Source of the DNA: a virus
Reading direction: 5' to 3' (one strand)
DNA: 64,000 nucleotides
Virus record (IMG/VR): IMGVR_UViG_3300035670_013168
Coordinates: 1-64,000 of that record
In this document: positions 42,005-63,401 of the stretch, in pieces
How positions within the stretch are numbered: position 1 is the first letter of the stretch
How the letters are laid out: each line of letters begins with the position of its first letter
Notes under the pieces: generated by a model
The model's database searches: none
Told to the model about the DNA's origin: nothing
What the model saw: only the letters and a program-made list of their open reading frames with translations
Position numbers and translations under genes: made by a program

Positions 42005-42859
42005 TCAGGGACAGTGCTTTGTGCCCTTGTAGGGACAAAAACCACAGGAGTCGCGATTCTTCAGGAACATGCCCTTTCGGACTGAGGACACCATACTGCG
42101 CACAATCTTGTTTGCCTTCTCGATTGATCCTGGGCCAACTGACACGGGCACAAGCTCGCAGATCTTGCCTGGTTTCGCGGCGCGCTTGAGGAGAATGAAG
42201 CCACAGCGTATGTCCTTGAGGGGTACACCGTGCTTCTTGGCCCAGAAGTGCTTGTAGAGGATGAGCTGAGCGGTCATTAGAATGTCCTGCTTCTTCTCGC
42301 GCTTCCAGCCATATGACTGCGCTGTCTTCCAGTCAATGATCCAGTAGATGTGTCCATCGCCCTTCTTGTTTGGAACCTTTAGAACACCGTCCACGAATCC
42401 CTTGAACTTGACGCCGAGGTCATCGATGTCCTCGTAGAGATCCTCCTCCGCCTTGAAGATCTCCCATCCTGGAAACTCCTCATCGAGGAATCCTAGGACA
42501 TCATCCCACATCTCATTGGCCCACTTTGACCACGTCTCAAAAGGAGCGTGCTTGTACCACCCAGGCTGGCGTGCGATCCACTCAGGGTCGTCAAAGTTGC
42601 ACTTGTCCCACTCAGACTTGAAAGCAGTTATGAGCTCCTCCCTATTCACCTGCTTTGTCTCAATGAGCGACTCACATCCGGCGTGGACAGCAGTTCCAAA
42701 AGGGAGGAAGGGAGACGGCTCGCCCATCTCAATCTTATCAATGTGCATCAGCTTGTGACGGTAGGAGCACTCCTTCCAACACTTCACCTCCGAGAAGGAG
42801 ATGTGTGGCTTGCCGGTTGGTAGTAGTGGTAGAGATACTTTTTCAGTCTGTTCTGTCAT
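42005..42859 (-). CDS. Cas4/RecB-like PD-(D/E)XK nuclease with Fe-S cluster
   Basis: A 284-residue nuclease. SFSEVKCWKECSYRHKL (21-37) opens it, H59 lies in FGTAVHAG, and the active site is GFVDGV (D157) and IIDWKT (D176, K178), followed by QLILYKHFW. Cysteines at 27/31 and at 272, 275, 283 (CGFC and C at the end) fit the Fe-S cluster of Cas4 and AddB nucleases. It lies between an epimerase and a glycosyltransferase, apart from other recombination genes. A role in end processing or in degrading host DNA is inferred. It has its own good promoter (42866-42894). Confidence 0.88.
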   Translation of the reverse strand: MTEQTEKVSLPLLPTGKPHISFSEVKCWKECSYRHKLMHIDKIEMGEPSPFLPFGTAVHAGCESLIETKQVNREELITAFKSEWDKCNFDDPEWIARQPGWYKHAPFETWSKWANEMWDDVLGFLDEEFPGWEIFKAEEDLYEDIDDLGVKFKGFVDGVLKVPNKKGDGHIYWIIDWKTAQSYGWKREKKQDILMTAQLILYKHFWAKKHGVPLKDIRCGFILLKRAAKPGKICELVPVSVGPGSIEKANKIVRSMVSSVRKGMFLKNRDSCGFCPYKGTKHCP

Positions 42860-42901: not shown

Positions 42902-43780
42902 TCACTGTTTAAGATCACGGAGGAAGCCAGAAACATAGTCTTCAAGTCTTATTCTAGGCGACCAACCTGTCTCAGCTGATGTCTTAGAGATGTCTGCCAG
43001 CGTCACTCTTGCTTCTCCTGAGCGTGCTGGGATATAGGTTATCTCGTTGGGATTAAAAAGTTTCGCAAGCTCATTGATGGAGTAATTTCTACCGGTTCCA
43101 AGATTGTAGACTTCGCCTCTGTGATCGCCTTGAGAAAGAGTGTATAGTCCTCGTACGATGTCAGTCACATGTATAAAGTCACGACGTTGCTCGCCGTCTC
43201 CTGTGACAGTGAGAGGTGCGGCCGCCTTCTTTTGTCTCTCAAAGATTCCGACAACAGTTGCATAGGGTCCTACAATAGGCTGCCTCACACCATACACGTT
43301 AAAGAACCTCGATACCGCCGTGTTCATTGAGTAAACGCTCGAGTACATCTCACAGAGCTGTTCACCTGTGTACTTTGCGTACGCGTATGGATTGAGCATT
43401 GGGCCTGCATAGGCAGAGCTGCTTCCTGCGTACACAACATTTGCGCCGAGGCGTCGAGCATACTCTAGAACATTGGCAGTGCCATGAACATTCGTTGAGA
43501 GACAAGTAAGAGGATCAGTAAAGCTGGGCTGGATCCTAGAGAACCCGGCAATATGGAACACAGTGTCGAACTTGCTATCTGCGTACTTGTAAGTGTTGAT
43601 GTGCTGGATGTCATCAATCCAGTACTCAACACCCTCTCTCATATTGCTGCGAGATGAGCTCTCTGACGATAGATTGTCCATCACAGTCACTTCGAACTGT
43701 TCGCCCTCACTCAGGAGTAGATCTACCATGTGCGAGCCGATAAACCCTAGTCCGCCTGTTACTAGTACTCTCTTCTTCAT
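42902..43780 (-). CDS. NAD-dependent nucleotide-sugar epimerase/dehydratase
   Basis: A 292-residue extended SDR enzyme. NAD-binding VTGGLGFIGSHMVDLL is at residues 6-21, the active-site SSSAYAG lies near 119-125, and the catalytic YAYAK (Y-x3-K) near 133-137. The family includes UDP-glucose/UDP-GlcNAc 4-epimerase and dTDP-glucose dehydratase; the sequence alone does not choose between them. It follows the nucleotide-sugar dehydrogenase (ATGA overlap, 43777-43780), so the two may act on related UDP- or GDP-sugars. Cytoplasmic; no signal peptide. Confidence 0.85.
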   Translation of the reverse strand: MKKRVLVTGGLGFIGSHMVDLLLSEGEQFEVTVMDNLSSESSSRSNMREGVEYWIDDIQHINTYKYADSKFDTVFHIAGFSRIQPSFTDPLTCLSTNVHGTANVLEYARRLGANVVYAGSSSAYAGPMLNPYAYAKYTGEQLCEMYSSVYSMNTAVSRFFNVYGVRQPIVGPYATVVGIFERQKKAAAPLTVTGDGEQRRDFIHVTDIVRGLYTLSQGDHRGEVYNLGTGRNYSINELAKLFNPNEITYIPARSGEARVTLADISKTSAETGWSPRIRLEDYVSGFLRDLKQ

Positions 43781-44739
43781 GATAATTTCTCCTTCTTCGA
43801 TGAAACAGCTCTTCCCACTTGACGCTCCCAGTCTCTATCATCGGGGCCTCTTACCTCGAGATTCTTTCTCCAGGCAGCCTCTAGAACCATAGGATCAACT
43901 CCATGCGTCCTGGCCAGACACATCATTGCGTTAATGTCCTTGGGAAAGCAGTGACCTCCATAACCACGTTTGCCATCAGGACCAGGAACTGCCCAGTGAC
44001 TTTCTCCTAGACGGAGATCATACTTGGCATACTCAACGACCTTATCATAGTCAATATCTAGCCCGGACTTATCTAGTGACTCGCACACCTGTGCCATCTC
44101 ATTGGCAAAAGCAACCTTGACAGTGAGAAAGTTGTTGGTGATATACTTGACCATCTCGGCAGTTGTGGAGGAAGTCTTGATAATTGGTACCTTTGGAAAT
44201 ACAGACTGAAAGACTTGCTTCACTTGATTGATCCACGGGCTCGGACCACCTAGGATAATTCTGTTTTGTCCCCGCATATCATTCAGAGCATTTGCTTCTG
44301 TCAAGAACTCGGGATTGAAAATGACGTGCAGTCCTTGAGAACAATACTTCTTATTCCACGTCTCTGTTGAGCCTGGTGGAATTGTCGACTTCACAACAGC
44401 CACCCTCTCACCAGGAACAGATGCTAGTTCAGATAGCACACTTTCAACAATTGATAGATCGGATGATCCATCTTCGTACATTGGTGTAGGCACACAGACA
44501 AAGTACACCTTCGTAAAGTCACTCATGCTCTCAGCTGCACGTACTAATTCAGCAATACTGTCAGGAGTGAAGAAACTATCAGGTCTGTTTGGATTGTCAC
44601 TTTTTAGCGCAAATATCCTGATTCCTCCTGGAGCCAGTTTCATTGCCTTGTCATAGACATAAACAGCTGTTCTTCTCTCGGAGAAAACTGTCGTTAGTGA
44701 ACCACCTACAAATCCCTGACCTATCACTGCAATAGACAT
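43777..44739 (-). CDS. UDP-glucose/GDP-mannose-type nucleotide-sugar dehydrogenase (short form)
   Basis: About 320 residues starting MSIAVIGQGFVGGSL. The ATG at 44739 has GAGGTTGAG directly upstream and lies 7 bases after the gmd stop; a longer start at 44769 would run into gmd. Visible features are the Rossmann motif, NPEFLTEANA (E145), KYITNNFLTVKVAFANE with catalytic Lys/Asn, and GYGGHCFPKD with C264. These make NAD-dependent oxidation of a nucleotide sugar to a uronic acid likely. Bacterial members are about 430 residues with a C-terminal second nucleotide domain; here it stops after the first plus linker. Substrate UDP-Glc, UDP-HexNAc or GDP-Man is open. Confidence 0.85.
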   Translation of the reverse strand: MSIAVIGQGFVGGSLTTVFSERRTAVYVYDKAMKLAPGGIRIFALKSDNPNRPDSFFTPDSIAELVRAAESMSDFTKVYFVCVPTPMYEDGSSDLSIVESVLSELASVPGERVAVVKSTIPPGSTETWNKKYCSQGLHVIFNPEFLTEANALNDMRGQNRIILGGPSPWINQVKQVFQSVFPKVPIIKTSSTTAEMVKYITNNFLTVKVAFANEMAQVCESLDKSGLDIDYDKVVEYAKYDLRLGESHWAVPGPDGKRGYGGHCFPKDINAMMCLARTHGVDPMVLEAAWRKNLEVRGPDDRDWERQVGRAVSSKKEKLS

Positions 44740-44746
44740 CTCAACC

Positions 44747-45730
44747 TCACAGCTTGAGTGCCAAATCAAAATCTTCTCTATACATCATCTCGACAAGCTG
44801 CTCAAAGTTGACCTTTGGCTTCCAGCCTAGCACGCTTCGAGCCTTTGATGAGTCACCCTCGAGGTGAGGCACCTCATGTGGCCTAAAGAGGCGCGGATTA
44901 ATTCGAACATGGTCCTCAACCTTGAGACCTGCAATCTCAAATGTCTTATCGAGAAACTCCTGTACTGTGTGTGTCTCTCCAGTTGCAATTACATAGTCAT
45001 CAGGAGTTCTCTGCTGAAGCATCAGCCACATCGCCTCAACATAGTCACCTGCAAAGCCCCAATCCCTCTTGGCGTCCAGGTTCCCGAGCTCGAGGATGCT
45101 CTGGCGCCCCAGCTTGATGTTGGCCGCGGCCATCGTAATCTTGCGGGTGACGAAGGTCTCACCGCGGAGGGGCGACTCGTGGTTGAACAGGATGCCCGAG
45201 GAGGCGTGCATTCCGTAGCCCAGCCGGTAGTTTCTGACGAGACCGTGCGAGAAGAGCTTGGCACAGGCATAGGGGGAGGCCGGGGTCATTCGGGTCTCCT
45301 CGTTCTGGGGTACCTCGGGATTGTCCCCGTACATCTCGGAGGAGCTTGCCTGGTAGAAACGGGCCCCCTTACCCTTCACATCTCTGAGAAGGCGGATGGC
45401 CTCGAGCAGGCGCAGGGTTCCAACCGCCACGGCATCAACCGTCTCCTCCGGCACCTCGAAGGACACCTTGACGTGCGACTGGGCGCCCAGGTTATAGACC
45501 TCGTCAGGCTCGAGCTCGAGGACAAGGCGATTGAGGCCTGGTCCGTCGTGCAGGTTGCCATAGTGGAGGTGGAAGTTGGGATGGTCAAAAAACTCATTGA
45601 CCCGGTCCGTGTTGATGAGGGACGTGCGGCGCTTGACGCCGTGAACCTCATAGCCCTTATCTAGTAGAAGACGGGTCAGGTAGGCTCCATCCTGCCCTGT
45701 CACACCGGTTATCAGAGCCCTCTTGCTCAC
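44747..45730 (-). CDS. gmd: GDP-mannose 4,6-dehydratase
   Basis: A 327-residue extended SDR with the hallmarks of Gmd: [19 protein letters not shown] at the NAD site, [38 protein letters not shown], and YACAK as Y-x3-K. It converts GDP-D-mannose to GDP-4-keto-6-deoxy-D-mannose, the first step to GDP-L-fucose. The next step (fcl) is the gene directly upstream, overlapping by GTGA. The 5' two thirds (45,060-45,730) are GC-rich with a codon use unlike neighbours, while the 3' third is not; see findings. GTG start at 45730. Confidence 0.95.
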
Positions 45731-46719
45731 TCCACACCTCTCACATTGGGATATTGTAGCATGAACCAGTCGGATGTTTCCCTTATTGCAATATCGAAAG
45801 GTGTGTAGTCCTCTTCCTGCCAGGAGGTGAGATCGAAGAGGCGCCGATTGGATGACGGTTTCCGGTGCTGTCCCATCGGCTTGGTGGTGTCATAGGATAT
45901 CTGTCCCTCATACCCCAGAGCGTCACGCAGGGTCTCTGCGACCTCGCGGATGGATCTCTCCTCGGTGCAGCCGATGTTGAGGGGCAGGTCATCGTCATAC
46001 TCATCCGCGACAACCTTGAGGATGCGCGCGGCGTCTGGGGCATAGGTGAATTCCCTCAGGGGGGAGCCATCGCCCCACACCGTCACGCTGGGGGCACCTG
46101 AGAGCTTGGCCTCCCAGATGCGCCTCATTAGGGCCGGAATAACATGCCCGTCCTCAAGGTGGAAGTTGTCGCCCGGGCCAAAGAGATTGTTTGGAATGAC
46201 TGTGATGTACGGGAGGCCTAATTGGGCGCGAATGGCACGGGTGTGCACGTCCAACATCCTCTTGGCATAGGCATACCCAAAATTGCTCGGATGCGGAGGG
46301 CCCAGGTGGAGCTGGTCCTCCGTCAGCGGCAGGGTCACGTAGGGAGTGTCGGGATAGACACAGGTCGAGAGGACTGATACTACCTTGGGCACCCGACTCC
46401 GGGAGCAGGCATCTAGCAGGTTCAGCCCCATCTGGGCGTTCTGGTGGAAGAAGGTTGCCAGGCGCTCGCTGTTCGCCTTGACCCCGCCAACGTAGGCCGC
46501 CAGGTGATAGACGGTGTCGAGCCCACTCGACCACGTGGGATTGGCATCAGGATTGCGGATATCGAATTGCTCAACATACTCCCTGACCGATGTCTCATCG
46601 GAAATATTGAGCTCGCGGCGGGATGGGGCCAGGACTTTGGAGCCGGTGCTCTCGAGATAGGAGCGCAGTGAGCTGCCCAGCATTCCTCCTGCACCGGTAA
46701 TTGTGATGAGGTCAGTCAT
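45727..46719 (-). CDS. fcl: GDP-L-fucose synthase
   Basis: A 330-residue [19 protein letters not shown] is the NAD motif, [19 protein letters not shown] and LSTCVYPD are typical of GDP-fucose synthases (WcaG), and YAYAKRM is the Y-x3-K catalytic motif. It performs epimerisation at C3/C5 and NADPH reduction at C4 of the Gmd product, giving GDP-L-fucose. The gene overlaps gmd (GTGA), so a two-gene fucose module. The whole gene is GC-rich relative to both sides. A promoter-like element and a palindrome lie just upstream. Consumer in this cassette: the GT11 enzyme at 50793. Confidence 0.95.
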
Positions 46720-46801: not shown

Positions 46802-47497
46802 TTACTTGCTAGAAATTGAACTTGCAAAGTCCTCAGAGAGAAAGAAAAAGTTTGTATGTTCGTATGTGTCATACTGATACTGAAGAGAAGATAGGATAAT
46901 GCCTGACGGGGTCATAACCGGTTGAAGTGGAACTAACCCTAGAGAACTTAGCTTTTCTATCATCGTCAATAATGAAATATTTCTTTCTCTCCAACATCCC
47001 CCATATTCGAACTGACCCCCTACTATCCTCTTAGAAAGGTTAGAATCGATGGTGTCAATGGCGTCTAGCTCATATCCTTCAACGTCCATCTTTAGATACC
47101 AAAGTTTCTTATCATACTTCTGGTTTTTGACCAGGATATCTTTCAACGTATTCTTCACAACCGGTGTTTCTAGAATTTGCTTTGACTTAAGCTCATTCGT
47201 GAAAGCAGGACGATTATTCAGAGATGTCTTAGAGTATTGTCCGTCCGGCGTATATACCTTGCCTACCCCCGTGTCTTTGCAAACAGCAAAGTTGTATATC
47301 TCAAAATGAGGAAATGCAATAGATAAACTTTCACACAAGGTTGGGATGGCCTCAATTAGAATTGCACTGTCTATCAGGTCAGAAACACTAGAGGTGAACT
47401 TACCTTCGTTTGCTCCGCAGTCTATCAATGAGACTTTATCACCATATCTGTCGGACATTTTTTTGAGGATGCCCCTAGCAATTGCAGTTTCTAACAT
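46802..47497 (-). CDS. FkbM-family methyltransferase
   Basis: A 231-residue class I methyltransferase. SLIDCGANEGKFTSSVSDLI (residues about 24-43) is SAM motif I, ILIEAIPTL follows as the motif II acidic strand, and WYLKMDVEGYELDAIDTI with GGQFEYGG is typical of FkbM, a sugar or secondary-metabolite O-methyltransferase family. It is common in polysaccharide clusters, where it methylates hydroxyls of sugars. Composition is AT-rich, and it opens the AT-rich part of the cassette. AGGTGTGTA precedes the ATG. Target unknown. Confidence 0.8.
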   Translation of the reverse strand: MLETAIARGILKKMSDRYGDKVSLIDCGANEGKFTSSVSDLIDSAILIEAIPTLCESLSIAFPHFEIYNFAVCKDTGVGKVYTPDGQYSKTSLNNRPAFTNELKSKQILETPVVKNTLKDILVKNQKYDKKLWYLKMDVEGYELDAIDTIDSNLSKRIVGGQFEYGGCWRERNISLLTMIEKLSSLGLVPLQPVMTPSGIILSSLQYQYDTYEHTNFFFLSEDFASSISSK

Positions 47498-47513
47498 TAC
47501 ACACCTATATAAT

Positions 47514-48215
47514 TCAACGTTTTATGAAAAAAGCCCCAGTATAATCAACCATGGTAATGTCAAACTTAAGATTTCTAGACTCCTCAAATTCATGAATGGC
47601 TTTTTTGAACCCCATCCAGTGTCCATAATCATCTAAAAAAATATATCCACCTGGTGCAACAAGATCATAAAGGTTTTCTATCACATGCTTTGTAGGGTAA
47701 TAAAAGTCGACATCTATTCTCAGCATTGATATTGTTGCCGGTCTTGTTTTTTCATCTAGTATGCTAATAGTATCCTCAACCTTGCCATTTATGATGCGCA
47801 GTTTTTCTTCAAGAACGCCAGTCTGTAGCATCTTTTCCTTTACCCACTCATCTGATACAAGATACTCTAAATTCTTTTTCAATGATTGATTGTCCCACAA
47901 GTCGACTGCTTTTACACCTGTATACGACACGTCATATTCTTCGTGTGGTCTATCCCAACCGGCAACCTGGTCATTTGTTCCCGCATATGTGTCATATAAC
48001 CAAAAATTTCTATTTGAGCAATCATTCTCCATGGACATATATGAAGATATCGCTATGAAAGAAGACTTACCAGATGCTACACCACATTCGACATAATCCC
48101 CGGGTATACCTTTTCCTACAATGTCTTTGATGCAATTATAAAGCCCTAGGCCTCTTTGTTGATGATGACCGCTACCATAGACTCGAGACATTTTATTGAA
48201 TATTATACTATACAT
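47514..48215 (-). CDS. TylF/MycF-like O-methyltransferase
   Basis: A 233-residue methyltransferase. GDYVECGVASGKSSFIAIS is a TylF-type SAM motif; FWLYDTYAGTND, LRIDVDFYYPTKHVIENLYD and APGGYIFLDDYGHWMGFKKA are further family signatures (Asp residues bind the metal and the sugar diol). TylF and MycF methylate sugar hydroxyls in macrolide pathways, and relatives occur in cell-surface glycan clusters. GGAGAAAATAA precedes the ATG at 48215. It is AT-rich and adjacent to two other methyltransferases. Probable product: a methylated sugar on the cassette's glycan. Confidence 0.85.
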   Translation of the reverse strand: MYSIIFNKMSRVYGSGHHQQRGLGLYNCIKDIVGKGIPGDYVECGVASGKSSFIAISSYMSMENDCSNRNFWLYDTYAGTNDQVAGWDRPHEEYDVSYTGVKAVDLWDNQSLKKNLEYLVSDEWVKEKMLQTGVLEEKLRIINGKVEDTISILDEKTRPATISMLRIDVDFYYPTKHVIENLYDLVAPGGYIFLDDYGHWMGFKKAIHEFEESRNLKFDITMVDYTGAFFIKR

Positions 48216-48241
48216 TTATTTTCTCCAAAACTATACGTCTG

Positions 48242-48820
48242 TCATGTCTTTGAGGACATAATAAAAAGCACTAAAGAGTTCTCAATATCTTGCAAGACAA
48301 CATTAATACCACAGCCATTTTTTCTTGCTAACTCATAAAAATCATGTGTGAATACATGTAAAGCTGATGTCCGATAATCAGGACAAACATCAATGACTAT
48401 CAATCGATCAGTTACTCTAAGCACTTCTCTTATGACACCTTCTATGTCTTTATGAGGTACATGCAACAAAACCAAAGATAGCACAATAGCATCAAAAGAG
48501 TTATCACCATAAGGTAGATTAGACAAATGTTCAATTAACTTAAAAGAATAGCTTACATTATTTCTTTTACATGATTCATAAAGTCTGGATCTAAATCCTT
48601 CATGGATATCCATGAAGGTTACATCTTTGCCTGCATAAGATTCAACTAATCTTCCAGTACCAGGTCCTAAATCGCATATTTTCTGACAATCTGAAATGTT
48701 ATCCTTTATAAAATTCACATGCAAATTTTTCATCTTTTCATCTTTAGTCGACTCTTCACTATTGGGTTCTAGTCGTTGTGACCAGTAGTTCCTGGGCTCG
48801 TATACATTGCTCTTAGACAT
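48242..48820 (-). CDS. Class I SAM-dependent methyltransferase
   Basis: A 192-residue enzyme. ICDLGPGTGRLVESYAGKDV (about residues 45-64) is motif I, VTFMDIHEGF ends with the acidic motif II, NLPYGDNSFDAIVLSLVLLH is motif IV, and VLRVTDRLIVIDV is motif V. It belongs to the Methyltransf_11/25 group, so the substrate could be a sugar, a small molecule or a protein. It sits between the TylF-like and GT64 genes; AAGGA is 8 bases before the ATG. AT-rich, about one third G+C in a stretch I counted near its 3' end. Confidence 0.82.
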   Translation of the reverse strand: MSKSNVYEPRNYWSQRLEPNSEESTKDEKMKNLHVNFIKDNISDCQKICDLGPGTGRLVESYAGKDVTFMDIHEGFRSRLYESCKRNNVSYSFKLIEHLSNLPYGDNSFDAIVLSLVLLHVPHKDIEGVIREVLRVTDRLIVIDVCPDYRTSALHVFTHDFYELARKNGCGINVVLQDIENSLVLFIMSSKT

Positions 48821-48844
48821 TATGTTGTCCTTATATCCCGCATG

Positions 48845-49594
48845 CTATAGTATGTCGAACCTAAAATGTGTCGCAGGTGGTCTCTGATATCCTAAACTTT
48901 CTAGAAACTTGCACATATGAAATCTCTTGTCCAGGTGCCCGGGATCCATGGTGCTAATTCCATTATTGGAAATACGCCTCCAGGTCTTGACCTTGTCATC
49001 ATGATGCACATAAAACCTAGGGGCTGACGAATGTCGAAAGTGCATATAGTTGAAGTATATGTCTTCGGCGTTCATTTGTTTGTCGACTAGGCTTTTTGCG
49101 TTAGTATTTTCATTGTATAAATCCAAGTATTTTCTATGAAACATTGCATATCCAGTTAAAAGAAAGTTGTATGGAATATTGCTCTTGTAGTGAGCTGCGT
49201 CTCCAGTATACAGCCTTTTACTTGGATCGATCAGCCTAGGAACACAACCGACCAGAGAATCCGTTGAGCTTGACCAGAACTTATACATCTCGACTATTGA
49301 CTCTTTGGTGCAGGTATAATCATCATCTATAGAAACTATGCAATCAGTCTTTATCTCCTCAAAGTTCATGAATCGATTGTTTAGAGAATTAACCTTGGGA
49401 CATACCAACACTATCTTTTTATTGCCAATAGATTCGATATGCTTTAAAAGCTCACTTGAAGGCTCTCTATCGACATTCTGCCATACGATTATGAGTCTGT
49501 CTATTGTATCATTGTTAGCAATCCTAAGTGTTGGATGCTCGCTATCCAATAGGAAAACATCTCTATTGTAAGATGGCATTATGATCGTGATCAT
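48845..49594 (-). CDS. Glycosyltransferase, GT64 (exostosin-like EXTL2 type)
   Basis: A 249-residue GT-A enzyme whose pattern follows EXTL2/GT64: ITIIMPSYNR, then LIIVWQNVDREP, NSLNNRFMNFEEIKTD, VSIDDDYTCTKESI (the DDD metal motif), VGCVPR, FLLTGYAMFHRKYLDLY and MNAEDIYFNYM. In animals GT64 domains add GlcNAc in heparan sulfate synthesis. In bacteria and phages the acceptor is unknown. It is translationally linked to the LmbE-like deacetylase (ATGA at 49591). A separate GT47-like gene lies 2 kb upstream, giving both halves of an EXT-like set. Cytoplasmic, no membrane anchor. Confidence 0.85.
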   Translation of the reverse strand: MITIIMPSYNRDVFLLDSEHPTLRIANNDTIDRLIIVWQNVDREPSSELLKHIESIGNKKIVLVCPKVNSLNNRFMNFEEIKTDCIVSIDDDYTCTKESIVEMYKFWSSSTDSLVGCVPRLIDPSKRLYTGDAAHYKSNIPYNFLLTGYAMFHRKYLDLYNENTNAKSLVDKQMNAEDIYFNYMHFRHSSAPRFYVHHDDKVKTWRRISNNGISTMDPGHLDKRFHMCKFLESLGYQRPPATHFRFDIL

Positions 49595-50247
49595 CGCATA
49601 TTTTCTTCCAACATACTGTAGGGAACAATGCGTTCAATCCAGCCCCCATTACCATCCTCTCTATAGACATTATACAGATAAAATGGAAATTTGACTAAGT
49701 TATGATCATCGCTTAAATCATGGTTGCAATCATAAGTCATTTCAAAAAGATTCTTTTTGTTATCAGGTATACTTGCTCTATCTTTTTTCTGAGGGTCAAA
49801 AACATATAACTTTTGTATTAATGACATATCACTGCAAATGTTTTTCACTATTTCATGAACTTGCCTGTGATGCATATGTCCATACTCCCCAATGCGACCA
49901 TGTGTTACTATCATTTCCCATCGTTGAGAAGAAATAATACGAGATATATCTGGTTCAATATTTTCTTGGATTCTATTTTTCTTTCCACTGTCGATACAGT
50001 TTAGCATTAAAGAATCACAACCTAAGACACTGGGGAGCCTCTCTAGAAAAGCATTTCTTCTTCTGTCTCCAACAAAACTAGGCTGTGGCGTTGTTACTGA
50101 GACTATCAACCACTTTTTATCTCTATTTTGTAAAAGAAATGATCCTGCAAAAACTATTTCATCATCTGGATGCGCAACAAACATGACACAGCTGCTAGCA
50201 ATATCATTTGTTGAACCAAAGGACCAAGACTCTTTAATAAAAAGCAT
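49591..50247 (-). CDS. LmbE/PIG-L family deacetylase
   Basis: A 218-residue metal-dependent N-deacetylase. CVMFVAHPDDEIVFAGS contains the AHPDDE motif (His-Pro-Asp-Asp), VTTPQPSFVGDRRRNAF includes the RR-x-E/A helix, and IVTHGRIGEYGHMHHRQVHE supplies the H-x2-H metal ligands. Members remove acetyl from GlcNAc-type sugars (GlcNAc-PI, MshB, BshB). In this cassette it could deacetylate an N-acetylhexosamine in the glycan or its precursor. It follows an unidentified gene with zero gap and overlaps the GT64 gene. AT-rich. Confidence 0.87.
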   Translation of the reverse strand: MLFIKESWSFGSTNDIASSCVMFVAHPDDEIVFAGSFLLQNRDKKWLIVSVTTPQPSFVGDRRRNAFLERLPSVLGCDSLMLNCIDSGKKNRIQENIEPDISRIISSQRWEMIVTHGRIGEYGHMHHRQVHEIVKNICSDMSLIQKLYVFDPQKKDRASIPDNKKNLFEMTYDCNHDLSDDHNLVKFPFYLYNVYREDGNGGWIERIVPYSMLEENMR

Positions 50248-50796
50248 TTATAGCTTTCTATACCCAACTATGGACTCATAGTCGATAGATTTTTGTATAT
50301 TGTCAAATCGACAAATAATCTTATTTGCTTTTGAAAAGGCTGAACTCTTTTTGTAGAAAAAAATAAGCCCATCTCTATTTAGAAGACTAATAAAAAGATT
50401 TAGAGCACTAGCGTCGTTCAATATGTGATATGGCATGCCCTCAACATAGTATTCGCACAAATGAAATAAATTAACAATATCAAAATGAGGTAAAAAGTTT
50501 TCACTTAAAGTATAGAAATCGGCAAACATTACTTTGTAGTTTTTTGCTAAATTAGGATCTTGTCTCAACAGATCAATATAGGCATTATGCTCTTCATGCT
50601 GTAATGTTATTCCCAGTATATTGTTTGGAATAGGCAGTGTTTTATTCTTCAATCCAATGTAGTGATGGCCGCCGGTACCATAGTGAAATATATTTTTACC
50701 ATAAAAATTTTTCTCCATATACTCGGCAAAGTGTAAATCACACGGACATTCATGCGGTTGAAAGCTATAGAACTTTCTATACTCGTTTAGCTTCAT
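50248..50796 (-). CDS. Divergent methyltransferase-like protein
   Basis: A 182-residue protein. KNIFHYGTGGHHYIGLK looks like a SAM motif I with histidines in place of the usual small residues, FADFYTLSENFLPHFDIVNL resembles motifs II and IV, and LLNRDGLIFFYKKSSAF resembles motif V. The order and spacing fit a Rossmann methyltransferase, but the glycine loop is atypical, so activity is uncertain. The N-terminal HECPCDLHFAE has two cysteines. ATGA overlap with the GT11 gene upstream. It could also be a pseudo-enzyme partner. Confidence 0.55.
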   Translation of the reverse strand: MKLNEYRKFYSFQPHECPCDLHFAEYMEKNFYGKNIFHYGTGGHHYIGLKNKTLPIPNNILGITLQHEEHNAYIDLLRQDPNLAKNYKVMFADFYTLSENFLPHFDIVNLFHLCEYYVEGMPYHILNDASALNLFISLLNRDGLIFFYKKSSAFSKANKIICRFDNIQKSIDYESIVGYRKL

Positions 50797-51560
50797 AGGC
50801 TCATTCCCTCATATCCATATCGTGACATTCCTTCTACAAGATTTATTTCTGGTTTATTACTTAAGCCCCATGCTCCCATATTGTGGGTGATTGGATATAC
50901 GACTCTATTGGCATTTGAAAAAAAGGAGGCCCACCAACTATAGGAACTCTGGGATATAATCATGTTTCGAAACTTTGAGAAGTAATACCAGTCCAAGATA
51001 TAATTGTCTGTACAGACTATAGTTGGTCTTAAATGAGAAAAGTAGCTTATGAATGGGTCGTTAGGAGAATCTGTGAATATCCATATTCGTTCATGATTAA
51101 AAGAGTTGATCATTTTCATGTAATGATCAGTTGTTATTGTGTATCCATGAGAGTGATAATCACCCAATCGAATATGCACTCCTAGGTCGGACTCATCTGG
51201 CATATCGATATATCTAGAACTTACCATATGGTCGAATAGCAGCTTAATCTCCTCAGAAACGCCAATCCATTCCTGGGTTAATTTTTCTCTATATGGAAGA
51301 TAGTATGAAGATCTCTGAAAGTACCCCTCAAGGTGTATTGGCCCATTATGTTTTAGGGCTGACTCAATATCAATAATGTGTCTCTTTAGCGTTAATACAC
51401 TATTTCCTTGTGGGTTTCTTCCTGTGATATTCTCCTGTATATCAAAACCGTATATGGGAGGACACGACATACTCATGCCCGTTTCTTCTGATAAAATTCT
51501 GGCCATCGCATATTGGAAAAGCTGATTGCCAGTTCTTCCCAGGTATTTTACGGTTATCAT
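50793..51560 (-). CDS. Glycosyltransferase, GT11 (fucosyltransferase-like)
   Basis: About 255 residues from the ATG at 51560 (ATGA overlap with the GT47-like gene; a longer in-frame start is not needed). ITVKYLGRTGNQLFQYAMA is the GNQLFQYA motif of alpha-1,2-fucosyltransferases, LGVHIRLGDYHS is the HxRxGD motif that binds GDP-fucose, and FRNMIISQSSYSWWASFFS is the third GT11 motif. The family uses GDP-L-fucose; gmd and fcl in the same cassette make that donor. A transfer to a galactose-type acceptor is the family norm, inferred here. Confidence 0.88.
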   Translation of the reverse strand: MITVKYLGRTGNQLFQYAMARILSEETGMSMSCPPIYGFDIQENITGRNPQGNSVLTLKRHIIDIESALKHNGPIHLEGYFQRSSYYLPYREKLTQEWIGVSEEIKLLFDHMVSSRYIDMPDESDLGVHIRLGDYHSHGYTITTDHYMKMINSFNHERIWIFTDSPNDPFISYFSHLRPTIVCTDNYILDWYYFSKFRNMIISQSSYSWWASFFSNANRVVYPITHNMGAWGLSNKPEINLVEGMSRYGYEGMSL

Positions 51561-52396
51561 GGCATACCACCTAGATGACAAAGGATGTTTTCATGAAAGT
51601 TATCAGGCATCAAAAACCCCTGATAGAAAGTAAAGATCTTTTCTTGCGCTTCTTTTATCCACTTTTCATCTAGATTCAAAAAGTCTGATGCATGCGAAGC
51701 ATGCTTTTCATCAACTAGAATATAACTGTCTTTTGGAAGTGTACTGGGGACTTTGAATCCATCTGAAATAATGACCGGTATGCAGCCAGAAGATATCGAC
51801 TCCCACAATCTTATTGTGCCATATCCAGTGCCGCGTGGGCATATTGAATAGATCGACCTAGACAATAAATCTTTGTAGTCGTTTTCATTCGACGCGCTCG
51901 GGGACTCAAAGTGCCATTTGCCAGTGTCTATAGAAAGAACCCTAGGATCACGAGATATCTCTTTTCTAGTTTTGTGTGTCTCATAACTTCCCATAAAGCT
52001 GGCCAGTATGTCTCTTCCAAACGCTTGATTGACATTTTTGGTCTCACAATTAATCGGCCAGTGAGGTATAGATACGTGGTTAACATGACTCGAAGCATGA
52101 CAAGAAAAAACGGAGCATTCATACCATTGCAACATATCACAGTTAATATGCTGGGATATCATGATACATCTCGAATATTCTTCGCCTAGATGCCTTCTAA
52201 TGCCATCGATAATTTGCTGAGTTGATCCTACACCATATTTTTTAATAACTCTGACCCAGCTAACATCTATTAGAGTTCTGTCTATTGAAGAGTATGAATC
52301 AATATTTTTTTTTATGAGATTGTGATAGTTTTCCTCAGTCGGAACACTGCAAGAAACACCCGACACATCTAGATTTTCTATGGCAAGTATTTTCAA
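51557..52396 (-). CDS. Exostosin-like glycosyltransferase (GT47 type)
   Basis: A 279-residue GT-B enzyme. The C-terminal half shows the exostosin signature: GRDILASFMGSYETHKTR, YSICPRGTGYGTIRLWES, and SGCIPVIISDGFKVPSTLPK, like the donor-binding domain of animal and plant GT47 enzymes (F-x-L-x-P-x-G, S-x-R-x-x-E, GC-x-PV-I-x-D). The start is TTG at 52396, overlapping the upstream stop, with AGGGG eight bases before. In animals the family polymerises GlcA/GlcNAc with GT64. The combination here is unusual; the acceptor is unknown. Confidence 0.82.
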   Translation of the reverse strand: MKILAIENLDVSGVSCSVPTEENYHNLIKKNIDSYSSIDRTLIDVSWVRVIKKYGVGSTQQIIDGIRRHLGEEYSRCIMISQHINCDMLQWYECSVFSCHASSHVNHVSIPHWPINCETKNVNQAFGRDILASFMGSYETHKTRKEISRDPRVLSIDTGKWHFESPSASNENDYKDLLSRSIYSICPRGTGYGTIRLWESISSGCIPVIISDGFKVPSTLPKDSYILVDEKHASHASDFLNLDEKWIKEAQEKIFTFYQGFLMPDNFHENILCHLGGMP

Positions 52397-53169
52397 TGTT
52401 TTGCCCCTACTTCTTTTTCATAAGTTTCTTTATATTTTGTGTATATTGGACAATTGATATTCCATGGCTTGGCATTATTCCAATAGTGATTTAGATACAC
52501 CGGGTGTTCAACAGGCAGCCCTTTGCAATATGCGCTTTCCCCATCAAAGACCGTATATCGGGCCCAACTATTCCATTCATAGCCCACGTCTTGATGTGTA
52601 TAATCATAATTGGCTTCTTTAAAAAAGCTATTGATGAGAGACTGATCAGTTCCTGGATGGACAAATCTTCTATCTCGAAAAAGAATTGCCATAAAGTCAT
52701 TCCAGGAAAAAAGCTTTTGATCAGAGACCAACATTACCCCGGAGTTTAAGACTGGCTCTGTCAGGTGATCAGTTTGACCAGGGATCACCTGGTGATTGAC
52801 GGCTATGAATGGCTTTTGCTTTGACGCATTGATCAAAGCCTTAGTATCGTGGATTACAAAGGCATCGGCATCGATGAAAATAAATGGCTCATCAATCAAA
52901 CAAAGGTTGTACAGTTTAAACAATACATTGTGACTGGCCTTCTTTTCATCAGGGTGTCCTGAAAAAGATATATCTGTATTGCGATGCCGAATTTCATTTC
53001 GAATATTCAAGCTAGAACACTTCGTCTCTAGATATTGAGGCAAAGGTTTTTCACTAAGAACTAGAATATCATTATCTGGAAAATATTTTCTAACCTGATG
53101 CATCCAGGCTGAGCACATGATATTGTAGTTTTCATTATCCGGATAATTGAAGACAGACGTAATCAACAT
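52393..53169 (-). CDS. Glycosyltransferase-like protein (GT-A, GT8-like)
   Basis: A 258-residue GT-A protein. LITSVFNYPDNENY starts the nucleotide-binding fold, EPFIFIDADAFVIHDTKAL has the DxD metal motif (DAD), and LNSGVMLVSDQKLF with QSLINSFFKEAN and DVGYEWNSWARY is typical of GT8-like or Glyco_transf_8 relatives. The substrate is not predictable. The ATG at 53169 overlaps the stop of the GT2 gene by 7 bases; its stop overlaps the TTG of the GT47-like gene. AT-rich. Confidence 0.72.
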   Translation of the reverse strand: MLITSVFNYPDNENYNIMCSAWMHQVRKYFPDNDILVLSEKPLPQYLETKCSSLNIRNEIRHRNTDISFSGHPDEKKASHNVLFKLYNLCLIDEPFIFIDADAFVIHDTKALINASKQKPFIAVNHQVIPGQTDHLTEPVLNSGVMLVSDQKLFSWNDFMAILFRDRRFVHPGTDQSLINSFFKEANYDYTHQDVGYEWNSWARYTVFDGESAYCKGLPVEHPVYLNHYWNNAKPWNINCPIYTKYKETYEKEVGAKH

Positions 53170-54059
53170 GATATTTTCTCATCGATAGAAATTTTTCCGG
53201 TTTCCTTCTCTACTTTTAGATCGATCAAGAAGTCATCTTGCAAAAAACAGTTACTGTTGATATTTTCATCTCCAATATTTTCGAATGAAACAACTCTGTT
53301 TTTTGAATCTTCGATATTGAAGCCATCCCTAGATCTTCTATAGTAGATCAGGTGATTTCCATATGGCAGGTCCATATCCTGACCCTTTTTTTCAGTCTGA
53401 TTTTTTGGTAACCACGGATACATACAGGCTCCCCATGGATTGATAGGGTCCGGCCCAAACCTGATTTCTCCAGAAGTCTTTATGCAACAAAAGGTCCAGT
53501 CTCCAGCATTTTCGTATAGTTTTCTTCTTTTCATCCCAGGATTTTGAAGACCAACTCGAACATACTTTCTATTGACTACATTTACAAGGTTAAAATACTC
53601 ACAGTCAGTGTCTGGTTCTTCCCACGCAGATATTCTGTCCAATATCCTGTCCTTGATACCGTCATATAGCATGACATCATCTTCTAGTGAGAAGTAGATC
53701 GATTCAGGGTATAGATTTCTACAAACTTCCAAGCTTTTGATTTGAGCTTTTGAGTGTGTCTTTGAGACGGGGTGCGTGTCTATTGTGTTTCCGTGGTCTC
53801 TTTTTAGCTTCAAGCTTGGGATAGGATCCCATTCACTGACATCAATATACGATATTTTTACACTTTCTTGACTTTGGCGCCTGTATCTCTCTACTTCCTT
53901 CGATGTCTCATCAGTAGATCCGTCGTCGGTTACAATAATGTGATCGAATATTTTTGCAGCGTGTCTTAGACATGAGTAAATTGTTGGCCCAGAGTTGTAT
54001 GTCTTAATGCAACAAACCCAAGGAACGGTTCTACAATATTGTTTCCACAAAATGCTCAT
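53163..54059 (-). CDS. Glycosyltransferase, GT2-like
   Basis: A 298-residue protein. WVCCIKTYNSGPTIYSCLRHA is the N-terminal start of the GT-A fold, IIVTDDGSTDETSKEVERY is the classical GT2 motif, and FSLEDDVMLYDGI is the DxD-type centre (EDD). The C-terminal third is basic and aromatic, probably for acceptor binding. Unlike processive GT2 enzymes there is no membrane helix, so it probably adds single sugars in the cytoplasm. It starts right after a TAA (TAAATG junction). AT-rich, among the lowest G+C of the cassette. Confidence 0.8.
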   Translation of the reverse strand: MSILWKQYCRTVPWVCCIKTYNSGPTIYSCLRHAAKIFDHIIVTDDGSTDETSKEVERYRRQSQESVKISYIDVSEWDPIPSLKLKRDHGNTIDTHPVSKTHSKAQIKSLEVCRNLYPESIYFSLEDDVMLYDGIKDRILDRISAWEEPDTDCEYFNLVNVVNRKYVRVGLQNPGMKRRKLYENAGDWTFCCIKTSGEIRFGPDPINPWGACMYPWLPKNQTEKKGQDMDLPYGNHLIYYRRSRDGFNIEDSKNRVVSFENIGDENINSNCFLQDDFLIDLKVEKETGKISIDEKISC

Positions 54060-54929
54060 TTAGATATCTACTCCAATTGATCTCATTCTGGCGCTTAAGC
54101 AGTTTTCCTCAAATAGTGATGCACTATCATCCACAACAACACTTCTCACAGAGCCTATTTTTCTCTTTAGTTCGCTGGGGCTTTTGAAAAATATCACCGC
54201 TGATTTATCTCTCAACATCTCCTCGTGCCTCCTGTAGGAACCAACTGTGTGCTGTAGCAATAGCCGACCAGAATACATGACCTCGTAGGCCCTTGTATTG
54301 AGGGCCCGGAGGACACCGATGGGATTAATCACGGTTCGATATGACATTAGGTTTAGTATGTAATCATCCCAACCTAACGACCTTGAGGTGTTGGTGATGA
54401 CAATACGGTCCTTCAAATCCGGATCCTGCAGTATCGATGACAGGAGCTCATTGCGCATCTGATACTCGGGCTTTCCTGCCTGGCCACTGAAGAGAAGTTT
54501 ATCCGTCTCAGGAAGAGGGGTTCTCTCATTGTAGAACCGGCACGAGGCCCACTGGGGAAGCCAATCGAAGCCATACTTGTCACAGTCGTCCTCGTCACAG
54601 GCCAGCACCCTCTTGCAGAACTTGGACGCCCTCAACAGTGATAGGTGGCTCTTGTATTGCCAGGCTGGGACAATGGCATCGATCCTCTCGAAGCACCAGA
54701 CCCAGTGCTCCCATTTTTCCTTGCGCGCGATCCAACGTGTAAGCTTCTCATCCGTGTCCCAGAGAAAGAAGAGGAAATCATGCCCGATGAAGAGCAGGTC
54801 ATCCTCGACTTCAAAGACGTGCTCATAGTCCTGCTCGGAAACGACCACTACATCCTGTATTCCATAGTCGAGAATCGAGGATGAGGTGCCGCAGCCATAG
54901 TCCTGTGTGACCAGCTTCACTCTTCCCAC
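54060..54929 (-). CDS. Glycosyltransferase, CgeB-like GT-B
   Basis: About 286-289 residues. The likely start is GTG at 54920 (GTGA overlap with the upstream stop) or GTG at 54929. SLLRASKFCKRVLACDEDD resembles the sugar-nucleotide linker region. LNLMSYRTVINPIG, LRALNTRAYEVMYSGRLLL and HTVGSYRRHEEMLRDK follow the Glyco_trans_1_2/CgeB pattern (N-x-R-x-x-E-v-x-x-x-G-x-x-L). Composition: the 5' three quarters match the phage average, the last 200 bases are as AT-rich as the following genes. The acceptor is unknown. Confidence 0.75.
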   Translation of the reverse strand: MGRVKLVTQDYGCGTSSSILDYGIQDVVVVSEQDYEHVFEVEDDLLFIGHDFLFFLWDTDEKLTRWIARKEKWEHWVWCFERIDAIVPAWQYKSHLSLLRASKFCKRVLACDEDDCDKYGFDWLPQWASCRFYNERTPLPETDKLLFSGQAGKPEYQMRNELLSSILQDPDLKDRIVITNTSRSLGWDDYILNLMSYRTVINPIGVLRALNTRAYEVMYSGRLLLQHTVGSYRRHEEMLRDKSAVIFFKSPSELKRKIGSVRSVVVDDSASLFEENCLSARMRSIGVDI

Positions 54930-56809
54930 TCAATCCACGGGGTGGGCTTATTCCAATCCACCTTGCTGTGAAATACGTGGCCGCCGAGCTCGGTGGCCAG
55001 CTTCTTTCCTAGCGCCTCAATCTCCTCCTCTGACACCTCGGACCAGGGGAGATCGAAGAACATATTGTTCTCAGCCGTGTCCTCCTGCTTGATATCATAG
55101 AGGCTCTGCCAGTGCTGGGACCAGTAGTCGCGGTAGGTCCGAATCTTTCGGGGGATGTCGAACCACGAGTAGTGTCTGACTCCCGGAATCGCATCTGTCA
55201 CCCTCCTGAACCAATCAGTGTAGGCGTCCTGAGCCTGCTTGTTTCCGGAGAGCGCGGCCATTCGAGCGCGGTGTACATCCTCTGTGTAGAATGAGGCGTG
55301 AGGAATAGGCATGCCTGTCTCTGTGTGCACGTAGTCGCAGCCGTCAGTTCCCATCGAGGCATACAGGTGACCCTCAGCGTCACTCCTTCTCAGTGGGCCT
55401 GGTACACCGTGTGTGATGTGTGGGAGGTTCCTAGATAGGCGCCACTTCCACGGATTGATATCCATGCGGGCCTTGGTCGGTCCTCCCCAGAACTCCACGA
55501 CAGGAAGCGATATGAGGTCCGCCTCCTTCGGGAAATTGCGACAGAGCTGGACGATCTTCTCGTAGTCCTGCGGCTCCACCACCTCGTCGGCGTCCATCTG
55601 CCAGAGGAACTGAGAAGTGCAGAGCTTTCTAGCCTCCGCCTTCTGCGCTCCGTCGAACACTGCGAACCGAGGATGGCTCCAGTCCCTCTCGACCAGGTGC
55701 ACCTTGAGTTTCGGCTCAGTCTCAGACCACTTCTGCAGCGCCTCGAGGGTGCCGTCCTTTGAGCCGCCGTCTACAACAACTACCTCATCGCAGAATCCGA
55801 GAAGTGACGTGATGGACTCCCTCCAGGGATACTTTGACTGAATGCAGTCCTTTGTCGTGGTGTAGCCACTGATGGTTGGCTTGTACTCCATGGCGGACTT
55901 GATCCCATTCCAGAACTGCTCACGTGCAGCAAACAGGTAGGACTCTGTTGTGAGCATATCGTCAGTGTCGAACCACTCCTCGGTGGCATGCTGCACGTTG
56001 TTGTTGATCACCAGCTTACAGCCTAGCAGCTTTGCCTCAATCACGAGACGAGGGCACGTGTCCCATCCAGCTGGGAGGTAGACGAGGCCTGCGGACTGAG
56101 CGAGCTTCTCCAGGAGCTGGTCATACGGAAGGTTCCACACAACCTCGTGGTCTAGCATGTGCGCCTTGACGTGGTCCAGCGCATTCTGGTAGCCCTTGAC
56201 CCAGGACTCTGATCCTAGCACGATCCACTTCTTCCTCTCCTCCACCTTGTCCTCCGTGCCGTAACGGGACCTGAGGAGCTTGAGGGCGAGGAAGAACTTA
56301 TCATCGAAGACGCTGCTGAGAACAGTGTTAGGCCTCTCCTCGAGAAAGGGAAACAGCTTGTGGTAGTGCTCCATCTGTCGCTCTGACATCCACCAGAGGT
56401 ACTTGGCACCGTAGTAGAAGGCAGATATAAGCTTGCCGTGCATCTGGTCATGGCAGTCGCAGGGTGTGTTCTCAGCGTGCTCGTGCTTCTGAGGAGATCG
56501 GTACTTGCAGTACTTGTAATCATACTCAAGCACTGAGTAGTTTAGATTCGCAACAATCGTGGGAATGAGCTCGAGCTTCATCTGACTGAAGTTGCCGAAG
56601 ATCCAGAAGCGATCGTGCAGCTGCTCCATGAGCTCTAGGGTAAGCTCTCTAGATCTAATTCTCTGAACCCTGAGAGGTGAGGAGTCAATGAGCGCCTGTG
56701 ATGTGAGCTCTGCGCCGCCTGTGTACTCATCTGCGAATAGGTCTGCTACAAACACGATCCTCGACTCTGGGTCGATATTTGGACCGGTACTGAAAGGGCT
56801 GTTAAACAT
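54917..56809 (-). CDS. Bifunctional glycosyltransferase (GT4-like plus GT2)
   Basis: A 630-residue two-domain protein. Residues about 15-300 look like a GT-B half: FVADLFADEYTGGAELTSQA, then WIVLGSESWVKGYQ and SAGLVYLPAGWDTCPRLVIEAKLLG, the GT4-type donor helix. Residues about 310-560 are GT2: FCDEVVVVDGGSKDGTLEALQ and SQFLWQMDADEVVEP (DxD). The upstream ATG (56809) has AGGAGACAG. It is the first gene after the divergent intergenic region and likely opens the glycan operon. Two linked transfers would give a disaccharide unit; this is inferred. Confidence 0.82.
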   Translation of the reverse strand: MFNSPFSTGPNIDPESRIVFVADLFADEYTGGAELTSQALIDSSPLRVQRIRSRELTLELMEQLHDRFWIFGNFSQMKLELIPTIVANLNYSVLEYDYKYCKYRSPQKHEHAENTPCDCHDQMHGKLISAFYYGAKYLWWMSERQMEHYHKLFPFLEERPNTVLSSVFDDKFFLALKLLRSRYGTEDKVEERKKWIVLGSESWVKGYQNALDHVKAHMLDHEVVWNLPYDQLLEKLAQSAGLVYLPAGWDTCPRLVIEAKLLGCKLVINNNVQHATEEWFDTDDMLTTESYLFAAREQFWNGIKSAMEYKPTISGYTTTKDCIQSKYPWRESITSLLGFCDEVVVVDGGSKDGTLEALQKWSETEPKLKVHLVERDWSHPRFAVFDGAQKAEARKLCTSQFLWQMDADEVVEPQDYEKIVQLCRNFPKEADLISLPVVEFWGGPTKARMDINPWKWRLSRNLPHITHGVPGPLRRSDAEGHLYASMGTDGCDYVHTETGMPIPHASFYTEDVHRARMAALSGNKQAQDAYTDWFRRVTDAIPGVRHYSWFDIPRKIRTYRDYWSQHWQSLYDIKQEDTAENNMFFDLPWSEVSEEEIEALGKKLATELGGHVFHSKVDWNKPTPWIEWEE

Positions 56810-62102: not shown

Positions 62103-63401
62103 TCAGAGTGCCTTTGATGCAAGAGTTGCCAGCGCGGACCTCTCGCCCTTTGGCAGGTGAATGTGGGCGACTAGACCACTGTCCCTCATCTTGTTGATAA
62201 CGATGGAGAGGCCGTTGGACCGCTTATCGATGTAGGGAGTGTCTACCTGATCCGTGTCGCCCATGAGGACGATCTTGGTGTTCTCACCAACACGTGTGAT
62301 AATCGTCTTCAGCTCGTGGATGGTGGCATTCTGCGCCTCGTCGACGATCACGAATGCGTTGCTGAACGTCCTTCCTCGAATGTAGGAGAGCGGTGAGATC
62401 TCGATCTGACCCTTGTTCACCATCATCTCAAAGTAAGACATGTCCTTGAAAGCGTGCCTAAAGTTGTCGACGAGGGGAGACATCCAGGGTGCCATCTTCT
62501 CCTTGATGTCACCAGGAAGGTAGCCTAGGTCTCGACCAACAGGCTGGATAGATCGCGTCACGATGATCCTCTCGTACTTGCCTGACTGCTGTCCCTCTAG
62601 GGCACTCATGAGCGTCAGGAAGGTCTTGCCTGATCCCGCGATTCCTGTCAGGCACACGAGGCTCACACTGTCGTCGGTGAGCGCGTCGAGGGCAAAGTGC
62701 TGCTCCTTGTTCTTAGGGCTAATGGCTCCGATCTTCTTAAACTCTGCTGTCTTGAGGCGGCGAAGCTCTCCGTCCGTGTACCTGCACAGGACACTGCTGC
62801 CTGTGTCCGACTTGCAGATGACATACTCATTCTCCAGGAGCGCTACCTCCTTTGCGCCTGACGACCAGTGAACGTATCCCTGTGAGTAGACCTCAGAGAC
62901 CACCGACGGTGACACCAGGATGGTCCTGGTGACATGGTCTTCATCCTCCTGAAGGTTTATGTAGTCCTTGTAGTAGTCCTCGGATTCGATCCCCAGGGCA
63001 TCACACTTTACTCGGAGATTGATGTCCTTGGTGACGACAATGATGGGCTTCCTCTTGTTCTTTGCCTTGAGGCTGAGCGCAACAGCAATGATCCTGTTGT
63101 CGCCCTTCTTGAAGTCCAGGTCCACGTGCAGGAGGTCATCAGGCTCCTGAGTGAAGACTTGAACAGTCTGGTCTGCCTCCGGAAGCTTTACTCCCTTGTC
63201 AAGACGGCCGTGCTCTCGGAGTCCATCGAGGTACCTGTTGACGTGTCGGGCATTCTCTCCGACAATACCAGGCTTCTCCTTGTTCCTATCTAGCTCATCG
63301 AGGACAATGAGTGGAATCACCACATCGTTCCCCGGAAAAGATCTAATAGAGTCTTTGTCGTACAGCAGAACCGATGTGTCGATTACGAATGTCTTTCTCA
63401 C
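62103..63401 (-). CDS. PIN-PhoH family ATPase
   Basis: A 432-residue protein. Residues 1 to about 150 are a PIN-type RNase domain (TFVIDTSVLL with D8, then VVIPLIVLDELDRNK and VTKDINLRVKCDALGI). Residues about 230-432 are the PhoH ATPase: Walker A TGIAGSGKT (252-260), PVGRDLGYLPGDIKEKMAPW, Walker B FVIVDEAQN (349-357) and TPYIDKRSNGLS. The PhoH2 fusion is a RNA helicase/nuclease in bacteria, and phoH genes are common in marine phages. GTG start; a promoter-like element lies 52 bases upstream. Role in the infection cycle is unclear. Confidence 0.9.
   Translation of the reverse strand: MRKTFVIDTSVLLYDKDSIRSFPGNDVVIPLIVLDELDRNKEKPGIVGENARHVNRYLDGLREHGRLDKGVKLPEADQTVQVFTQEPDDLLHVDLDFKKGDNRIIAVALSLKAKNKRKPIIVVTKDINLRVKCDALGIESEDYYKDYINLQEDEDHVTRTILVSPSVVSEVYSQGYVHWSSGAKEVALLENEYVICKSDTGSSVLCRYTDGELRRLKTAEFKKIGAISPKNKEQHFALDALTDDSVSLVCLTGIAGSGKTFLTLMSALEGQQSGKYERIIVTRSIQPVGRDLGYLPGDIKEKMAPWMSPLVDNFRHAFKDMSYFEMMVNKGQIEISPLSYIRGRTFSNAFVIVDEAQNATIHELKTIITRVGENTKIVLMGDTDQVDTPYIDKRSNGLSIVINKMRDSGLVAHIHLPKGERSALATLASKAL

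Follow-up and report, generated by a model that had tools for sequence, protein, structure and literature searches.

In the window analysed here, the 64,000 nucleotides at positions 1 to 64,000 of the IMG/VR virus record IMGVR_UViG_3300035670_013168, an operon encodes a GT64 glycosyltransferase (GT) and, in a separate gene, an exostosin-type GT47 protein, together with a PIG-L-type de-N-acetylase, several further GTs and genes for the synthesis of GDP-L-fucose (Table 1). On balance, we favour the view that these genes form a modular cassette of a T4-like phage that builds a short, branched, fucosylated and methylated oligosaccharide, most likely on a virion protein, and that the GT64 and GT47 proteins are separately acquired parts of it and not a polymerase. 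The direct observations from which this view starts are the genes and their families, the conserved active-site residues, the exchange of the slot among related phages and the lack of membrane proteins in the cassette. The original prediction had instead read the two GTs as the split halves of an EXT-type polymerase making a heparosan-like glycan, with the PIG-L protein as the counterpart of the heparan N-deacetylase and a nearby dehydrogenase as a source of uronic acid. It had omitted the GT11-like gene (50793-51560), the 182-residue gene (50248-50796) and the Gmd/GDP-L-fucose synthase pair (44747-46719), and because Gmd, the fucose synthase and the GT11-like gene are present, the interpretation changes.

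The GT64 protein

The sequence assigns the protein firmly to GT64, with a complete domain. Its match to PF09258 scores 119.8 bits (cut-off 21.3) and covers positions 2-226 of the 245-position profile. The best match in the Protein Data Bank (PDB) is EXTL2 (1.1e-19), followed by EXTL3, EXT2 and EXT1, and a four-member GT64 profile gave EXTL3 at 1.8e-37, EXTL2 at 1.4e-35 and EXT2 at 1.1e-34. Aligned with EXTL2 and EXTL3, the protein keeps the DXD motif (D90-D92), a Glu-Asp pair (E177-D178) and R224, the last corresponding to R293 of EXTL2 (number and equivalence were counted by hand on the aligned sequence). In EXT1 and EXT2, the corresponding residues contact the metal and the N-acetylglucosamine (GlcNAc) moiety of the donor (PMC9675754). 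As a family, GT64 consists of retaining, metal-dependent enzymes that form linkages of alpha-N-acetylhexosamine (alpha-HexNAc; PMC9178029, PMC9675754), and the phage protein is predicted to be an Mn-dependent retaining alpha-HexNAc transferase. An AlphaFold model of modest confidence (pLDDT 62) has a GT-A fold like that of EXTL2, its best Foldseek match (3.8e-11), the top matches being EXTL2, EXTL3 and EXT2 at 1e-11 to 1e-8.

Most known GT64 proteins are exostosins of animals and other eukaryotes. No GT64 match was found among 50,697 phage records or among 72,556 plasmids, and no PHROGs family was matched. A motif scan of IMG/VR (NxLNNRF...DDD), which demands the exact motif letters and therefore undercounts, returned two other contigs, one of a phage (L071) and one probably of a eukaryotic virus (L070). 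The phage contig, the only other one found in IMG/VR, carries its GT64 at the same slot as the window (locus L082 of the same contig, 7362-8759), with 38% identity to the protein described here. Found twice at one slot, a phage GT64 that is soluble, has no membrane anchor and keeps its active site intact shows that the family circulates in bacterial viruses; as a small enzyme it would be well suited to probing the residues that determine acceptor choice, and it may become a practical alpha-GlcNAc transferase.

The L070 protein (1-2523, more than 841 residues) joins LicD-like, GT-like, GT64 and FkbM-like regions, all except GT64 judged by eye, and adjoins an ARF-type GTPase. Among 396 Bacteroidota genomes there was one strong GT64 match (L059), the others being marginal at 20-27 bits. 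The L059 gene (108-1466; 8.3e-44) has an N-terminal hydrophobic segment and lies on a 3.9-kb contig of a Flavobacteriales metagenome-assembled genome; the other open reading frames tested on this contig had no Pfam match, and the contig may be a eukaryotic or viral contaminant.

The PIG-L gene and the other genes between the two GTs

The GT64 and GT47 genes are separate open reading frames on the minus strand, and the 1.96 kb that part them hold three genes. The stop codon of the PIG-L gene overlaps the GT64 start (ATGA), and the simplest inference from this overlap is a two-step module in which an alpha-HexNAc is added and its amine is then exposed. Alpha-GlcNAc glycosides are the substrates of PIG-L enzymes in the synthesis of glycosylphosphatidylinositol, mycothiol and bacillithiol. 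A deacetylase between the two GTs had been predicted correctly, but as a counterpart of the heparan N-deacetylase it does not hold: the protein belongs to PF02585 and not to the NDST family, which was not matched, the Pfam search giving only PF02585 and a weak chance match. The GT11-like protein carries the motifs GRTGNQLFQYA and HIRLGDY and matches cyanophage GT11 genes, with PF01531 at 0.0024, under the cut-off; translation of its gene probably begins at position 51560, with an ATG that overlaps the stop codon of the GT47 gene.

The GT47-type protein

The sequence-based assignment to GT47 is real, but thinner than that of the GT64 protein. PF03016 matches with 54.1 bits (cut-off 33.4), and only in the C-terminal half (positions 137-274 of 293 in the profile). 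The best PDB match is EXT1. A GT114 identity was weighed, since the GT114 enzyme AO75L also matches PF03016; a six-member viral GT47 profile scores EXT1 at 5e-19 versus 1.6e-5 for AO75L and thus favours EXT1, while Foldseek with a low-confidence model (pLDDT 62) lists EXT1, EXTL3, EXT2 and AO75L alike. Both family assignments of the original prediction are borne out.

The EXT1 residues R280, R346 and E349, which bind UDP (PMC9675754), correspond to R144, R196 and E199 of the phage protein, R196 and E199 being placed by profile alignment and R144 from an invariant column together with visual inspection. The EXT1 loop Gly339-Phe345 (GRRLGSF), proposed to recognize glucuronic acid (GlcA; PMC9675754), is not kept and reads GTGYGTI in the phage protein, with R340 replaced by T. 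GT47-type proteins are common in viral contigs, 51 of which carry CPRGxGxxxxRLWE. A widespread viral family with the motif CPRGNGxDTHRLWE (L127-L177, more than 40 IMG/VR contigs), related to PF03016 and RXYLT1_C, forms a sister group to the GT47 protein of the window.

Operon organization and sugar supply

Sixteen genes run in the same direction from 56809 down to 42902 with frequent ATGA-type overlaps, and therefore form one operon. From its 5' end it encodes the 630-residue GT and the GT4-like, GT2, GT8-like, GT47, GT11-like, 182-residue, PIG-L and GT64 proteins, followed by three methyltransferases, GDP-L-fucose synthase, Gmd, the dehydrogenase and the SDR epimerase.

Table 1. Genes of the cassette and its flanks in the window
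Feature	Position	Strand	Evidence
PhoH, fixed flank	62103..63401	-	phrog_2765 5.6e-102; same neighbour in L082 and L085
630-residue GT, C-terminal GT2 domain	54917..56809	-	PF00535 7.4e-10
GT4-like protein	54060..54929	-	PF13524 0.0047, weak
GT2 protein	53163..54059	-	PF00535 7.4e-8
GT8-like protein	52393..53169	-	PF01501 2.7e-4, under cut-off
GT47-type (exostosin) GT-B protein	51557..52396	-	279 residues; PF03016 2e-14
GT11-like (alpha-1,2-fucosyltransferase-type) protein	50793..51560	-	phrog_2644 glycosyltransferase 6.5e-18
182-residue protein, methyltransferase-like by eye only	50248..50796	-	no Pfam, PHROGs or PADLOC match
PIG-L/LmbE-type de-N-acetylase	49591..50247	-	PF02585 6.5e-13; AHPDDE metal motif
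GT64 protein	48845..49594	-	249 residues, single domain, no membrane anchor; PF09258 1.6e-34
Methyltransferase (Methyltransf_11)	48242..48820	-	PF08241 4.9e-13
TylF-type O-methyltransferase	47514..48215	-	PF05711 3.2e-32
FkbM-type methyltransferase	46802..47497	-	PF05050 2.5e-9
GDP-L-fucose synthase	45727..46719	-	best PDB matches GDP-L-fucose synthases, 1.6e-64
GDP-mannose 4,6-dehydratase (Gmd)	44747..45730	-	TIGR01472 458.5 bits, over equivalog cut-off 415
Short nucleotide-sugar dehydrogenase	43777..44769	-	PF03721 and PF00984; TIGR03026 over cut-off, profile 1-294 of 413
SDR nucleotide-sugar epimerase (UDP-glucose 4-epimerase-like)	42902..43780	-	best PDB match 4zrm, 5.8e-39
PD-(D/E)XK nuclease, fixed flank	42005..42859	-	PF12705 2.3e-20; 55 related loci

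The nucleotide-sugar genes point first to L-fucose, because Gmd scores over its equivalog cut-off and stands with a fucose synthase (NF047922 6.7e-65, under its equivalog cut-off) and the GT11-like gene; fucose is the best-supported sugar besides HexNAc. The dehydrogenase named in the original prediction is real, but its proposed role as a uronate source finds no support: the C-terminal UDP-binding domain PF03720 is absent in the Pfam scan, leaving two of the three domains of a UDP-glucose 6-dehydrogenase, and the gene is kept in relatives regardless of the two GTs and is missing from the GT64 cassette L082. Its homologues in relatives (L072-L099) are, by length, equally short at about 280-330 residues. 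The SDR protein was considered as a source of UDP-xylose, an idea prompted by weak RXYLT1_C matches and by human UXS1 among the PDB matches; its sequence resembles a 4-epimerase more than an enzyme of UDP-xylose synthesis.

The G+C content is a mosaic, with 32-40% in the 7.3-kb block 46802-54059, 57-58% in Gmd and the fucose synthase and 50-55% in the first two GTs, and owing to its low G+C content relative to the flanks this block probably arrived as one piece. A simple hydropathy test showed no evident membrane segment in any cassette protein; the highest 19-residue value, 1.63, falls at the beginning of a Rossmann domain. Nor did the cassette yield a flippase, polymerase or initiating phosphoglycosyltransferase. 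A defence system was dropped as an explanation, since none of seven cassette proteins compared with PADLOC, the GT64, GT47 and PIG-L proteins among them, gave a match. A chimeric assembly is unlikely, as the genes overlap and an independent contig has a GT64 at the same slot.

The phage and its exchangeable slot

The record, of metagenomic origin, is linear, comprises 68,146 bases and is likely a fragment. It encodes a T4-type terminase large subunit (phrog_2, 2.8e-55), a primase, a baseplate wedge protein and PhoH, and the terminase shares about 42% identity with its counterparts in Microcystis phage Mel-JY01 and the Flavobacterium immuto phages and up to 86% with those of unclassified metagenomic contigs. 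By these genes and terminase matches, the record is identified as a fragment of a T4-like tailed phage. The cultured relative immuto has no sugar cassette within the stretch 60000-105000. Outside the cassette, the window also encodes a protein with a laminin-G/concanavalin-like domain (26234-27562; PF13385 3.3e-11), possibly a sugar-binding adhesin, and, beyond the nuclease, two more GT4-type GTs (39532-41939).

Related loci, 55 in number, were fetched through the nuclease downstream of the cassette, and the 19 whose nuclease shows 60% identity or more and whose sequence extends 4 kb or further upstream were compared by blastp (E up to 1e-10). The dehydrogenase occurs in 15 of the 19 and the SDR gene in 13, while Gmd homologues occur in three, a fucose synthase in two, GT64 in one and this GT47 in none. 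The dehydrogenase is thus a standing gene of the slot, kept regardless of GT64 or GT47. Different sugar sets occupy the slot in other phages: L072 has NeuB and a cytidylyltransferase, a pair of the sialic-acid type, and L073 has a DegT aminotransferase, a dTDP-sugar isomerase, a PfkB-type kinase and a cytidylyltransferase. In L082, a GT64-GT25 fusion is followed by a sulfotransferase, and no PIG-L, GT47, dehydrogenase or Gmd was seen in that cassette. The sulfotransferase gene (8756-9400) matches Sulfotransfer_2 at 6.3e-5, barely over the cut-off, and a sulfated glycan is possible there. Homologues of the 630-residue GT, 48-50% identical, stand at the cassette edge in L082 and L085. Phages thus exchange whole sugar sets at this slot, as bacteria do with O-antigen clusters.

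The GT64 and GT47 genes are not co-inherited. In whole-record searches, GT64 was found in none of 27 viral contigs with a GT47-type gene, and the two further viral contigs with GT64 (L070 and L071) both lacked GT47; these searches recover the record of the window itself, so that the method works, but the records are fragments. A more distant relative, L097, has GT47 and no GT64. On present data, the pairing in the window is a one-off.

Proposed function and alternatives

The cassette sits between fixed flanks, with PhoH and the large GT on one side and the PD-(D/E)XK nuclease on the other. In the favoured reading, its enzymes would act in the cytosol of the infected cell, adding one sugar per step. 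Such stepwise cytosolic glycosylation fits because no membrane segments, flippase, polymerase or initiating transferase were found, and a virion protein is favoured as the acceptor since the cassette encodes neither export nor a membrane step. Gmd and the fucose synthase would make GDP-L-fucose, to be spent by the GT11-like enzyme. The GT64 protein would transfer alpha-linked GlcNAc or N-acetylgalactosamine from a UDP-HexNAc donor with Mn2+, the PIG-L protein would then strip the acetyl group from this HexNAc, leaving a free amine, and the GT47 protein may attach a further sugar from a UDP donor. The three methyltransferases (TylF, FkbM and Methyltransf_11) are predicted from the genes to cap the glycan by methylation. 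Virion glycans are known in phages, at least in mycobacteriophages (Freeman 2023, as cited in PMC12619734).

Several points weigh against this reading. Virion protein, host glycan and DNA are all candidate targets, and activity and glycan alike are read here from genes. The GT11-like gene and the fucose synthase fall under the Pfam and NCBIfam equivalog cut-offs, respectively; no PIG-L gene stands beside the other phage GT64 (L082), so that the GT64/PIG-L pairing is a single case; and an initiating transferase or a flippase could come from the host.

The main alternative, possible but less likely, is that the cassette remodels a surface glycan of the infected host (lipopolysaccharide or capsule), superinfection exclusion being one conceivable purpose, by way of a host lipid carrier and host export. 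This is the usual interpretation of similar clusters of Gmd, fucose synthase, alpha-1,2-fucosyltransferase and GTs in T4-like cyanophages (PMC9602691), and the exchangeable cassette does resemble O-antigen loci. The cassette, however, encodes neither a membrane protein nor a flippase, polymerase or initiating transferase, and a lytic T4-like phage would have little time to alter the surface.

Attachment of the sugars to modified bases in the phage's own DNA, of the kind found in T4 and further hypermodified phages, is improbable. T4-like relatives do glycosylate their DNA, and GTs for diverse phage DNA glycans are known (Pyle 2024, as cited in PMC12619734), but the part of the window genes scanned, in a phage that is itself incomplete, contains no base hydroxymethylase or thymidylate-synthase-like gene, and three methyltransferases, Gmd/Fcl and PIG-L would better fit a protein- or lipid-linked glycan.

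We consider it very unlikely that GT47 and GT64 jointly produce a polymer in which uronate and hexosamine alternate, heparosan-like or otherwise, with the dehydrogenase supplying UDP-GlcA and PIG-L serving as the N-deacetylase. Both domain families do share an operon with a dehydrogenase and a deacetylase, GT64 retains the GlcNAc-binding residues and GT47 is nearer to EXT1 than to AO75L. Against this stand the lack of co-inheritance, a dehydrogenase kept without either GT and without its C-terminal domain, the altered GlcA loop, a PIG-L protein outside the NDST family and the remaining operon genes, most of which serve fucose, methylation or other GTs. Given the lack of co-inheritance and donor-supply genes without a specific fit, the split heparan polymerase, which nothing specific favours, was rejected as the leading interpretation, and we give scarcely any credence to an N-deacetylated heparosan-like chain, a glycosaminoglycan-type polymer made by a split exostosin, on the virion or the host.

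Comparison with known systems

EXTL2 is a single-domain GT64 enzyme, an alpha-1,4-N-acetylhexosaminyltransferase. The phage GT64 shares with it the complete domain, the DXD motif, the Glu/Asp-Asp pair and the R293-equivalent arginine, and finds it as the best Foldseek match; unlike EXTL2, it has no membrane anchor, its identity is about 20-30% and its gene overlaps a PIG-L gene. The bi-domain heparan sulfate polymerases EXT1 and EXT2 combine GT47 and GT64 domains, with equivalents of EXT1 R280, R346 and E349 in the phage GT47, whereas in the phage the domains lie on two genes that are not co-inherited, and the GlcA loop is changed. A075L (AO75L) of PBCV-1, a GT114 beta-xylosyltransferase formerly annotated as exostosin/GT47 (PMC11571054), resembles the phage GT47 as a virus-encoded cytosolic GT-B protein that matches PF03016 and has the R-x-x-E donor-binding pair; it differs in belonging to its own family, GT114, and the phage GT47 profile scores it lower than EXT1.

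As a gene set, the cassette is comparable to that of the T4-like cyanophage S-SCSM1, where several GTs accompany Gmd, GDP-L-fucose synthase and an alpha-1,2-fucosyltransferase (PMC9602691), although the section consulted describes no GT64 or GT47/PIG-L pair for this cell-wall set. The nearest GT64, in IMG/VR contig 3300024581_003789 (L082/L071), comes from a related T4-like phage and occupies the same slot, but is fused to GT25 and followed by a sulfotransferase. Fucose/GT cassettes and virion glycosylation are thus already known, and the new elements are the phage GT64 and its coupling to PIG-L.

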